NCBI GenBank assembly: GCA_937897265.1
Contig: CALCPT010000319.1
Span: 1-13,421 of the forward strand
DNA length: 13,421 nt
From: an uncultured Alcaligenaceae bacterium
Lineage (GTDB): Bacteria; Pseudomonadota; Gammaproteobacteria; Burkholderiales; Burkholderiaceae_B
Reading direction: 5' to 3'
Made by a program: the position numbers and the translations under genes
Notes under the pieces: model-generated
Database searches by the model: none
The model's input: only the letters and a program-made list of their open reading frames with translations
Told to the model about the DNA's origin: nothing
Shown here: one piece after another, positions 5,956-13,421 of the stretch
How positions within the stretch are numbered: the stretch's first letter is position 1
Layout of the letters: each line of letters begins with the position of its first letter

Positions 5956-7689
5956 ATGCCACGAATGGCTCTGCTCTTCCGCCAATTCTTGTTCGGACTA
6001 ACCATCTTGCCTTTAACAATCCACGCGGCCAATACTGACTATGATGGAGCGTGGGATGTAGTCGCAAATTGCGGGGTAAATGCCTCTAATGGACGGCCTG
6101 GCTTTAGCTCAAGGCTTGAGTGGAACATTAAACACGGCAAAATTCAAGAGGTGCAAGTCCATCGCAACGCGAGCCCGCGCGAACAAACGACTTGGGATGG
6201 AGCCGTTCGAGAGGGGCGAGTAGAACTGGTCGGTGTTGGTACGCGCGAGCCTAGCGACAAATGGACTTGGCGACTCAGTGGTTCGGCCATCAACAATCGC
6301 CTCATCAAACTCAGCGGTGCAATGGTAGCCGGAGACCGACACCTTCGTGACTGTTCGATTGAAATGTCCTTGCGGGAGCCTCAACCGATCAGCCTAGCTG
6401 GACGAGCAATCAGTCAAAGCCAAGTCAATAGCCCCCCAACCTCTCAAGCCGATGCGACCTCCGCGACAACAAACCCCAAAAATCCAGCCAGCGTCACCTC
6501 TCTTAAAGAACCGCTTCCGATTGTGCAAGAGTCGGTTGGTGTACAAACGGTTATTGCAGAAGGCATAGGCAAAGACTTGCCAAGCGCTAGCCAAAATGCA
6601 GCTCAAAATGCATTGATCAACGTGGTGGGATCATTTATCGATGCAGCCAAACTGCTTGAAAAGCGCACCACCATTGAAGAAGGGATTCGAACCCAAACCT
6701 CCCAAATACGCAGCGATGTCAAAGAATACTCTCAAGGCACGATCAAATCTTTTGAGATTGAGTCGCTATCGACGCAAAATGGATTAACGCGCATCACCGC
6801 AAAAGTATCTGTACGCGTCGAGGACTTCCGAGCTTATGTTAAAAAACTAGCCGAAGGAACCGTTAGTGTAGACACTAGTCTGTTTGCCAAAATTACCACC
6901 GAGCAAAAGCAAAATCAGAATCGCGTCGCCTTTTTAACCGAGAACGTTTTTCTTCCAGTACAACGCGGCGAGGTGATTGTTCTGAATGTCGGTGCGCCCG
7001 TTCCGATTTCGCAGGCAGACCTGTCGCGCGAAGAGAGAAAGCTTGCTGGTGAATTAGAAAAAAATTATGGCGCCAGTAGCGTTGTCACGTTCGATGTTGC
7101 CATGTCACTGAACCCAGATTTTTGGGTCAATATGAGCAAAACCCTGCAATCGATTTCGACCAAGTCGGTAAAAAAACAAATCTCGGATAATCAAGTCAAC
7201 AATCTTCCGGCAACGTTGCACCAATTCTGCCAAACGGAATTTCATCCCGTTCCAAAAAGCGATTTTTGCGCTGCAATATTATCCAAAGACGACAAGACCA
7301 ACTGGCTGCAATTGCATTTTGCAACCGGTATACACATTGATCTCGAAAAAGCTGTGCCCTGGTGGTTTAAAACTGATCCAAAAAGTCCGCTAACTCGGCC
7401 CACCCTTGCCATTAGTCTGATCGATTCTGCTGGTCAGAATCTTCAACTCGAGGAGTTAGACACCACTCCTCACTCACGTAGTGGCCTAATCAGAAACGAT
7501 AAGATGATCGTATACAGTCTAGACCGTAACAACTCCTCTACGATTCCGTGGTCACTTACATCAACATTACCGACACCTTACCCGACGATTTTTCAACAAG
7601 GTAAGTTTAGAGTCATGCTAGCCGTCAACACGGAAGCACTACGTGACACTCGAAAAATAAATGTTAAATTGCAACGACGCGCCCCCTAA
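5956..7689 (+). CDS. Exported protein of unknown function with an LPP20/FlgT-like central domain
   Basis: This 577-residue protein begins with a Sec signal peptide (1-24, ending IHA before ANT). Residues about 27-137 form an N-terminal beta-rich domain opening with YDGAWDV, with cysteines C39 and C133 that could pair in the periplasm. A Ser/Thr/Pro/Ala-rich linker (about 140-185) follows. The next segment (about 198-300) has the pattern seen in LPP20 lipoproteins and the FlgT N-domain: an EGIGKDLPSASQNA helix, VVGSFIDA, an IEEGIRTQ stretch, then KEYSQGTIKSFEI and RITAKVSVRVEDF. The remaining 270 residues match nothing I recognise. There is no lipobox. Stop to next start is 20 bp, so it is probably co-transcribed with the following signal-peptide protein, which shares the LPP20-like pattern. 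The family assignment rests on pattern recognition only, and the function is unknown. Confidence 0.85.
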   Translation: MPRMALLFRQFLFGLTILPLTIHAANTDYDGAWDVVANCGVNASNGRPGFSSRLEWNIKHGKIQEVQVHRNASPREQTTWDGAVREGRVELVGVGTREPSDKWTWRLSGSAINNRLIKLSGAMVAGDRHLRDCSIEMSLREPQPISLAGRAISQSQVNSPPTSQADATSATTNPKNPASVTSLKEPLPIVQESVGVQTVIAEGIGKDLPSASQNAAQNALINVVGSFIDAAKLLEKRTTIEEGIRTQTSQIRSDVKEYSQGTIKSFEIESLSTQNGLTRITAKVSVRVEDFRAYVKKLAEGTVSVDTSLFAKITTEQKQNQNRVAFLTENVFLPVQRGEVIVLNVGAPVPISQADLSREERKLAGELEKNYGASSVVTFDVAMSLNPDFWVNMSKTLQSISTKSVKKQISDNQVNNLPATLHQFCQTEFHPVPKSDFCAAILSKDDKTNWLQLHFATGIHIDLEKAVPWWFKTDPKSPLTRPTLAISLIDSAGQNLQLEELDTTPHSRSGLIRNDKMIVYSLDRNNSSTIPWSLTSTLPTPYPTIFQQGKFRVMLAVNTEALRDTRKINVKLQRRAP

Positions 7690-8406: not shown

Positions 8407-9756
8407 TTAACCGCACGTTAAATTAGTCAATAACAGGTCGAGCTCACGCTCGATCTGTTGAAATAGCGGGCGTTGCAGCACAACTCTCGTTAAACAGCGA
8501 TCACGTAATCGTTCAATTTTTATAATAATCGCAAGGTATATTGCCCGGTTGGCACATCCAGCATTAAGACGCTCAAGTAACTCTTCAAGCAAACACCCGA
8601 ACGCTCGCACTTCTATCTGCTCAAGCGCCTGCGCAACAGCGCTGTCGCTTTGATCGTAAAAAGCTGCCGCACCAAAATCCCCTAACACTGCATGGCCACC
8701 CTCACCAATTAAGGTGTTGTGCGCATACAGATCACCATGTGTCAGCCCGCGACTATGCAATTGGCGAGCCAAGCTTGCTACACCATGCGCCACGCGTAAC
8801 GCGTCGTTCAAACTAAAGCGCAGGTCAGCTGCATAGACATCACGGGTGCAAGATTGCAAACTGGGTGGTGCGGCGAGGTTGCGATAGCTTGAATCAACGA
8901 GCTGCATGACTAAGGCCTCAGTCTTCTCTGGATGGCCTGTCACCTTGCCAAGTAAATTGATGAGATACGGATGCGAGCCCGCGCTCAGGTAGGCCGCGAT
9001 CTCACTGTGTGGCAAGCCATCACTCGTCAGCGCCCCTTTAAAGACCTTGACCGCTACCTCTTGCGAAGCTCCCGCAAGCGCAGCCTGATAAATCACACCC
9101 GAAGCACCTTCACCAAGCTTTTGCTGAAGCTGAAGACTGGCCCAGGGGATTTGAGCCAAGGCGACTTGGCCCGTCAGCGCTCGAGCCTCGGCCGCCGCAC
9201 AAACCGGATTACCTGAATACCCCAACCACGAGAGCCTAGGCATACTTAGCAACCACTCAGGCAACGCCTCAAAGCGATTTGCAGCAATTCGCACCAATTC
9301 AAGCTTGGTACAAGTTGCCATCTCAACCGGTAACGTCGTTAACAAATTGCCAGACAACGCTACCTTTTGCAGTTCGTGGCACGCACCAATTTCAGGCGGC
9401 AGCGCAGAAAGCTGATTTCCCATCAAAATTAGCCAACGCAACTTAGGCGGCAGGGCTGCACCCTGAATCGTCGCAATTTGATTGGTGCGAAACCCAAGCA
9501 TGCTCAAGTTTTGGCATTGTCCCAACACAAGGGGCAATTCAGTAAAGCGATTACCAGCGCAGAACAGTACCTTTAAGCGGTGCAGCCGAGCAAAATCCTC
9601 AGGCAGGCTTGCCAACGCATTGCCCGACAAATCCAAATATTCAAGCGTATCGGCCAAGGTAAAGATTTCGCGCGGAAACTGCGTCAAGCCCTCTGACAAA
9701 ACCAAGCGAGTCGCGCCGGCCAGTTCACCCCGGCGAAGTTGTTTAAGAGTATTCAT
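8407..9756 (-). CDS. Leucine-rich-repeat protein kinase, cytosolic
   Basis: A 449-residue protein with no signal peptide or membrane segment. Residues 38-187 hold six full 22-23-residue leucine-rich repeats plus a partial one (pattern LxxLxLSxNxLxxLP; repeats begin at 38, 61, 84, 106, 129, 152 and 175). A degenerate first repeat lies at 16-37. A eukaryotic-type protein kinase domain (about 207-400) follows, with glycine loop LGEGASG (214-220), VAVK lysine K237, alpha-C glutamate probably E252, catalytic loop HGDLYAHN (D342, N347; HGD instead of HRD) and DFG at 360-362. All catalytic residues are intact, so it is probably active. The activation segment is very short: only about 20 residues separate DFG from the EVRAFG helix, and there is no APE motif. 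The LRR domain probably binds the substrate or a regulator. No cognate phosphatase or substrate gene is evident; the divergent neighbour is rmlB. ATG 9756 lacks a clear Shine-Dalgarno. Confidence 0.92.
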   Translation of the reverse strand: MNTLKQLRRGELAGATRLVLSEGLTQFPREIFTLADTLEYLDLSGNALASLPEDFARLHRLKVLFCAGNRFTELPLVLGQCQNLSMLGFRTNQIATIQGAALPPKLRWLILMGNQLSALPPEIGACHELQKVALSGNLLTTLPVEMATCTKLELVRIAANRFEALPEWLLSMPRLSWLGYSGNPVCAAAEARALTGQVALAQIPWASLQLQQKLGEGASGVIYQAALAGASQEVAVKVFKGALTSDGLPHSEIAAYLSAGSHPYLINLLGKVTGHPEKTEALVMQLVDSSYRNLAAPPSLQSCTRDVYAADLRFSLNDALRVAHGVASLARQLHSRGLTHGDLYAHNTLIGEGGHAVLGDFGAAAFYDQSDSAVAQALEQIEVRAFGCLLEELLERLNAGCANRAIYLAIIIKIERLRDRCLTRVVLQRPLFQQIERELDLLLTNLTCG

Positions 9757-12235: not shown

Positions 12236-12324
12236 ATCACCACGCTTTGTACGCGCGCCTAGGTTGCTACGCTGTTTACGCGCGCCTAAATTGCCAAGCT
12301 ATTTACATGCACCAAAGCGGCGAA
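12217..12324 (+). repeat. 27-bp tandem repeat, four degenerate units across the glycosyltransferase stop codon
   Basis: Units start at 12217, 12244, 12271 and 12298, all beginning GCT and sharing the core TTTACGCGCGCCTA. By direct comparison units 1 and 3 agree at 21 of 27 positions, units 2 and 3 at 21, units 1 and 2 at 19, and unit 4 is weaker (18 against unit 3). Because 27 is a multiple of three, the stop codon of the gene in unit 1 (TAG 12233) recurs in phase as TAG 12260 and TAA 12287. The array therefore looks like a duplicated 3' gene end. Confidence 0.75.
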
Positions 12325-12342
12325 CTGACAATAACAATCAAC

Positions 12343-13005
12343 TCAAACCCCAAGCAAGTCAAAATAATAAGTCTGACTCCCGTACTCTGGCGGCGACACA
12401 TACGTTTCTTTACCCAAACTCTTCCAGGGCACAGCCTCTGCAAAATTTGGCCCATCGTAAACAAACGTATGAAACTCACCGTTTTCACCGCACGCATCGA
12501 CCCCAGCAGGCAGGCGATCAATAAAGGCTTGATCAAACTCACAGCCCACAAACGAGGCGTCTAAAAAGCGTCCGTCTACACACACCACACGTGCTTTAAA
12601 CCCAAGCGCCAAAAACTCTTGCACTAACGCCAAACGATTTTCGTTCCATAACGGTAAGTGAGCTTGCACGCTCGCTTTAGCACATACTTTTTCTTCCCAC
12701 TCTTTGTGCGGCACAAGATCAATATCGCCAAAGATCACATCCTGCGCACCGTCAGCGGCGGCGGCCTGCAGTTGTTCAATAAACAAACTCTCGTACTCAG
12801 CCCAGGTGGCAGACAGAAAATAGTTTTTCAACCCCAACGCTTTTGCCTGCGCCACAAGCAACGCACGACTCACCCCGTGCGAGCGCGCCTTTAAGCCGGT
12901 TTCATCTAAGGCCGTTAATAGACCTGTTACCCGCATCGTCTGTTGGCTTCGATACAACGCGAGGCAAGAGTCCTTGCCACCACTCCATGAAACGATTGAG
13001 GTCAT
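12343..13005 (-). CDS. Dph6-like ATP-pyrophosphatase (diphthine-ammonia ligase family homologue)
   Basis: A 220-residue cytosolic protein of the adenine-nucleotide alpha-hydrolase superfamily. The PP-loop is SWSGGKDSCLAL near the N-terminus (S8-G-G-K-D-S13). Further family marks are VIFGDIDLVPHKEWEE (about 89-104), PLW in the middle, and the C-terminal signature GENGEFHTFVYDGP. This matches the single-domain Dph6/MJ0570 group. The eukaryotic and archaeal enzyme amidates diphthine on elongation factor 2 using ATP and ammonia. Bacteria lack diphthamide, so the bacterial substrate is unknown, and an adenylation-plus-amidation reaction is the safest statement. ATG 13005 has only a weak AAGA upstream, but a strong promoter candidate lies at 13041-13069. 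It is convergent with the glycosyltransferase across the 27-bp repeat array. Confidence 0.88.
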   Translation of the reverse strand: MTSIVSWSGGKDSCLALYRSQQTMRVTGLLTALDETGLKARSHGVSRALLVAQAKALGLKNYFLSATWAEYESLFIEQLQAAAADGAQDVIFGDIDLVPHKEWEEKVCAKASVQAHLPLWNENRLALVQEFLALGFKARVVCVDGRFLDASFVGCEFDQAFIDRLPAGVDACGENGEFHTFVYDGPNFAEAVPWKSLGKETYVSPPEYGSQTYYFDLLGV

Positions 13006-13040
13006 TTTTTCTTAGTCATAGATGCTTAGAATTGTGAGTG

Positions 13041-13069
13041 AGTCTACGGTGATCACTCTCCACCGTCAA
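13041..13069 (-). promoter_or_regulatory. Sigma70-type promoter with embedded inverted repeat, upstream of the Dph6-like gene
   Basis: On the minus strand TTGACG (13069-13064; 5 of 6 to the -35 consensus) is followed by a 17-bp spacer and TAGACT (13046-13041; 4 of 6 to the -10). Transcription would start near 13034, about 29 nt before ATG 13005. An inverted repeat ACGGTG-N9-CACCGT (13046-13066) spans the spacer, and a perfect GTGATCAC palindrome (13049-13056) sits inside it, so a repressor operator is possible. Confidence 0.45.
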
Positions 13070-13329
13070 ACCTCTTCCAATCATGCCGCTGTGATGGCAG
13101 CATGAAACAAAACACACATTCAGAAACACTCAGTTACACACGTTTCCTAAACCCTTTGCTATGCTCAAAACATCCATGCGTAGTCAATTTGCCGACAAGA
13201 TCAAGAGACAATGCCGAGCGCAAATTTTGCATGTATGACTAGCGTCGACTGAAAAATCATTTCCTTCATCTCAGCTCGATCGCTTACACACTAATCGCAT
13301 CAACACTATCTTCAGCCGGAACCACACCT
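13070..13329. other. Non-coding stretch near the contig end, no gene supported
   Basis: I find only very short open frames here, such as a 25-codon one from ATG 13161 without a Shine-Dalgarno. An imperfect stem (ATG-CCG-CTG opposite CAGCAT, 13083-13102) is present but not terminator-like. A weak TACACA-N16-TATCTT pair near 13290-13310 could serve a downstream gene. No RNA gene, repeat or mobile-element end was recognised. Confidence 0.5.
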
Positions 13330-13373
13330 ATGCATGCACTAGCTTACCGACAAGTTTCTATCGATCTCGATCC
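13330..13373 (+). CDS. Possible 5' end of a truncated gene
   Basis: ATG 13330 is preceded by GGAA 8 nt upstream and opens a frame (MHALAYRQVSIDLD) that runs until the adapter begins. Only 14 genomic codons are visible, so no product can be named. The Shine-Dalgarno spacing is the only positive evidence. Confidence 0.25.
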
Positions 13374-13421
13374 AGATCGGAAGAGCGTCGTGTAGGGAAA
13401 GAGTGTCTTCGCCTGTGTAGA
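13374..13421. other. Illumina TruSeq adapter with i5 index (sequencing artefact, not genomic)
   Basis: AGATCGGAAGAGC at 13374 begins the TruSeq i5-side adapter, followed by GTCGTGTAGGGAAAGAGTGT (13387-13406), an 8-base index CTTCGCCT (13407-13414) and the start of the next adapter block GTGTAGA (13415-13421). The reverse complement of the index is AGGCGAAG, which from memory is i5 D505. The last 48 bases should be removed from any biological reading. Confidence 0.97.

Follow-up and report, generated by a model that had tools for sequence, protein, structure and literature searches.

What is the sequence with which this contig ends, and does it belong to the bacterium? The stretch analyzed here, which we call the window, is the entire contig C319 of an uncultured Alcaligenaceae draft genome (G000:C319:1-13421, 13421 bases), so the window end is the contig end. 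The draft genome (G000) comprises 3,746,496 bases in 728 contigs. The initial annotation had read the terminal bases as a TruSeq adapter that includes an 8-base i5 index and marks a true contig end. All of this holds, as the contig itself finishes at 13421 and its last 48 bases, 13374-13421, are identical (48/48, 0 mismatches) to the beginning of the TruSeq read-through adapter on the i5 side, with CTTCGCCT as its index (Table 1). The reference for this comparison is the TruSeq adapter sequence, and CTTCGCCT/AGGCGAAG is presumably index D505 of the TruSeq HT list. A 21-base portion of the reference, CGTCGTGTAGGGAAAGAGTGT, appears in print in Moeller et al. 2024 (PMC11536531). Fixed adapter letters account for 40 of the 48 tail bases, and the chance of such a match anywhere among the 1456 contig ends of the genome is p ~1e-21. 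The adapter core, AGATCGGAAGAGC, has a single occurrence in the window at up to 2 mismatches (13374-13386), and no adapter was seen by eye in the first 80 bases. At other contig ends in the same genome the flow-cell arm extends further, to ...GTGTAGATCT. We conclude that the last 48 bases are leftover Illumina library adapter and sample barcode and are not bacterial DNA; no observation spoke against their identity as adapter.

TABLE 1 Features at the end of the contig (window coordinates)
Feature	Position	Strand	Basis or remark
Genuine gene start, first 44 bases, truncated by adapter	13330..13373	+	Congeneric loci
False open frame MHALAYRQVSIDLDPDRKSVV, stop inside adapter; not to be annotated	13330..13395	+	Translation
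Adapter stem and read-primer region	13374..13406	+	33 bases, exact; artefact
i5 sample index CTTCGCCT, 8 bases, reverse complement AGGCGAAG	13407..13414	+	Artefact
Flow-cell arm, first 7 bases, GTGTAGA	13415..13421	+	Artefact

The adapter recurs at numerous contig ends in the draft genome. At up to 1 mismatch, the 13-base core has 119 copies (57 forward, 62 reverse), compared to 3 matches for the reversed control pattern; an exact 13-mer would be expected 0.11 times by chance. Many copies in one genome are also what a mobile repeat would give, and the tail could in principle be genuine bacterial DNA, either adapter-like by chance or a real contig-end repeat. Against this, the 115 exact junctions examined of the 119 core matches, located via searches for the core and for the arm-specific parts, all lie at contig ends, with the adapter pointing outward in every copy read and none internal. 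In addition, both arms of the library are found within this one assembly, each with one fixed index. Among the 115 tails, 53 are from the i5 side and 60 from the i7 side, one is too short to assign, and one (in contig C151) has a one-base insertion that fits a PCR or sequencing error. The i5 index is CTTCGCCT in all 26 tails that show it in full, as had been read from the window, and the i7 index is GCCAATGT in all 27 that show that index in full. As every full index agrees, the tails derive from one library. Measured from the start of the core, the tails run for 13 to 52 bases before the contig ends, and their commonest length is 50 (22/115). The suggestion that similar artefacts may sit at other contig ends is thus borne out at no fewer than 115 of the 1456 ends (about 8%), a minimum because tails shorter than 13 bases were outside the search.

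The adapter tail, an ordinary assembly artefact, cuts short a real gene. Translation from the ATG at 13330 gives 21 codons before a TAG, at 13393-13395, that belongs to the adapter, as does the sequence behind the protein end, DRKSVV; the earlier caution against reading the final open frame through to its apparent stop was well placed. Relatives were sought with 12300-13373 as the query in 61 genomes (its own included), of which 10 matched. Six loci, all from the same genus, align to within 3 bases of the junction, and the other three relatives match the earlier part only. Long reads or another genome of the same species continuing through 13374 with the adapter letters had been named as the finding that would refute an artefact, and such a continuation was looked for among congeners, no other genome known as the same species being among those compared. 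All six congeneric loci run past the junction with other sequence, and the adapter core is absent from their next 600 bases, which argues further against genuine DNA. The frame from the shared ATG encodes 178 amino acids (aa) in five of the six and 96 aa in the sixth (L122). A search of the window's own genome for the continuation of the gene, run without a positive control, found none, and the break was not closed within the assembly; an empty result of this kind shows nothing by itself. In one relative (G007, L121:2529-4054, the continuation of window position 13330), the 178-aa frame is followed by a 122-aa frame overlapping its end; next comes another frame of 178 aa that resembles the first one. 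Judged by eye, the 122-aa frame presumably resembles a HEPN-type small helical protein. No family was found for the three proteins of this relative in Pfam (E 0.001) or in PADLOC and NCBIfam (both E 0.1).

The same letters occur well beyond this genome. The full i5 adapter with CTTCGCCT is present in 79 stretches of genome_contigs, in 53 assemblies, and these stretches span phyla as distant as Planctomycetes, Spirochaetes, and Clostridia. The search pattern itself had 47 bases. Contigs in other public metagenome assemblies thus carry at their ends the same adapter and i5 index as this draft genome. Tails are 47 to 52 bases long in the 23 records with metaWRAP, CONCOCT, or MetaBAT in their titles; the remaining 56 comprise one inward-facing copy and 55 outward tails with lengths between 47 and 94, among which 2 are only partly adapter. 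The longest tail is therefore 52 in both our genome and the 23 titled records, whereas it reaches 94 in the others, a contrast that suggests a different assembler k. The inward copy (L035, CAISHO010000046.1, locus 6435-6481) has the same index, lies 66 bases from the end of its contig, and in its placement differs from the 78 others; it is perhaps a chimera. The presence of the same letters in such distant phyla also counts against genuine bacterial DNA. Since placement, indices, and relatives are all against a chance match or genuine repeat, we dropped that explanation, to which we assign a vanishingly small probability. Among 60 relatives searched, i5-side tails were found at contig ends in 3, all of the same genus (G001, G003, and G009). 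Their i5 indices are CTTCGCCT in G001 (L220), GCCTCTAT in G003 (L221), and AGGCTATA in two of the three tails of G009 (L222-L224).

It is practically certain, in our judgment, that the tail arose by read-through of a short insert, with the adapter then assembled into the contig. A read longer than its insert would continue beyond the genomic DNA and into the adapter with its i5 index. If the adapter portion were left on the read, a de Bruijn assembler would prolong the genomic path into it, and the extension would halt where adapter k-mers merge with k-mers of other inserts or where reads run out. Through the merging of shared adapter k-mers, each contig would retain at most about k bases of adapter, less any genomic bases shared by chance. 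The longest tail of 52 and the commonest of 50 therefore suggest a k of about 55, and the metaSPAdes default includes k=55. The tails of the 23 records with metaWRAP, CONCOCT, or MetaBAT titles, which also stop at 52, agree with this. The base preceding the junction is unselective among the 115 tails (C 33, T 30, G 26, A 26), and a near-even composition is expected of random fragment ends. The adapter might instead have entered through an adapter-ligated chimera or an adapter dimer, and the inward-facing copy in L035 raises the possibility that assemblies of this kind contain chimeras. However, all 115 copies read in our genome face outward, and their parts, to the extent that the tail includes them, follow the order of a read-through (genome, then stem, index, and arm); we consider this route very improbable.

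Read-through of a short insert leaves an adapter in the assembly if trimming was missing or incomplete, and we infer one or the other here. The initial annotation had gone further, taking the tail to mean that reads were not adapter-trimmed. That adapter was left in the assembly is correct, but a lack of trimming cannot be taken as the sole cause, as incomplete trimming fits equally well. Several of the 56 records without metaWRAP, CONCOCT, or MetaBAT in their titles, with sample names such as LaPlata and Alinen, keep the adapter with the CTTCGCCT index at contig ends. Both are names of lakes that occur in PMC8121793, which describes assembly with MEGAHIT and adapters clipped with Trimmomatic. 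The likely records of a Trimmomatic-clipped data set thus still have tails, and therefore an adapter tail is no proof of skipped trimming.

The pair of indices can also be followed from one assembly to another. We sought the i7 side in all 53 assemblies, in 47 of them with the exact index GCCAATGT and in 6 with the index left open. The exact index was found in 0 of the 47, which is weak evidence, as those assemblies may contain few readable i7 tails. The open search gave a reading in two of the six assemblies and none in four. In the first of the two (G112, uncultured Polymorphobacter sp. isolate SRR6231136_bin.14), the index is GCCAATGT in 11/11 i7 matches; in the second (G108), it is TCCGGAGA in 2/2. 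The Polymorphobacter assembly has 63 exact cores, and the 27 tails read there are 15 to 51 bases long; 26 of these fit the same two adapters exactly, and one lacks a base. Because they share the index pair and the tail limit, this assembly and the genome of the window are probably from the same library. This is not certain, because index pairs get reused: the congener G001 also has the i5 index CTTCGCCT, with a tail of 68 bases. A literature search for SRR6231136 or SRR62311 found no paper. We consider it likely that such tails amount to a legible mark of the library: their i5 and i7 pair traces drafts to the source library and, in this case, links our draft genome to SRR6231136_bin.14.

The tail has no biological meaning; its use is practical, in cleaning up the assembly. 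We recommend trimming the 48 terminal bases and removing the frame at 13330-13395 from the annotation; no fewer than 115 of the 1456 contig ends in this genome call for the same trimming. Otherwise, spurious proteins with translated adapter at their ends (e.g., DRKSVV) could enter protein databases. The index pair, in turn, can be used as provenance evidence for a draft genome. Elsewhere in the window, the minus strand at 8407-9756 encodes a 449-aa protein with leucine-rich repeats and a protein-kinase domain (PF13855, PF07714), a combination better known from eukaryotes. Another minus-strand gene, at 12343-13005, encodes a Diphthami_syn_2 (PF01902) protein in a bacterium; its match to the NCBIfam model Dph6_archaeal is below the cutoff (82.4 versus 197.3 bits).

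Adapter contamination of contig ends has already been published, and the case described here adds no new biology. According to Moeller et al. 2024 (PMC11536531), 1110 of 15,657 species reference assemblies have significant adapter enrichment (p<0.01), with the enriched adapter concentrated at contig extremities. The case presented there resembles ours in that the core and an arm-specific part lie at contig ends and the reverse complement lies at contig starts, and in that an assembly contains many adapters, with contigs broken by them. It differs in that the assemblies tested there come from MGnify catalogues, both host-associated and marine. Index pairs are unreported in the abstract and Results of that paper; in our draft genome, by contrast, both the i5 and the i7 index are readable and identify one library.
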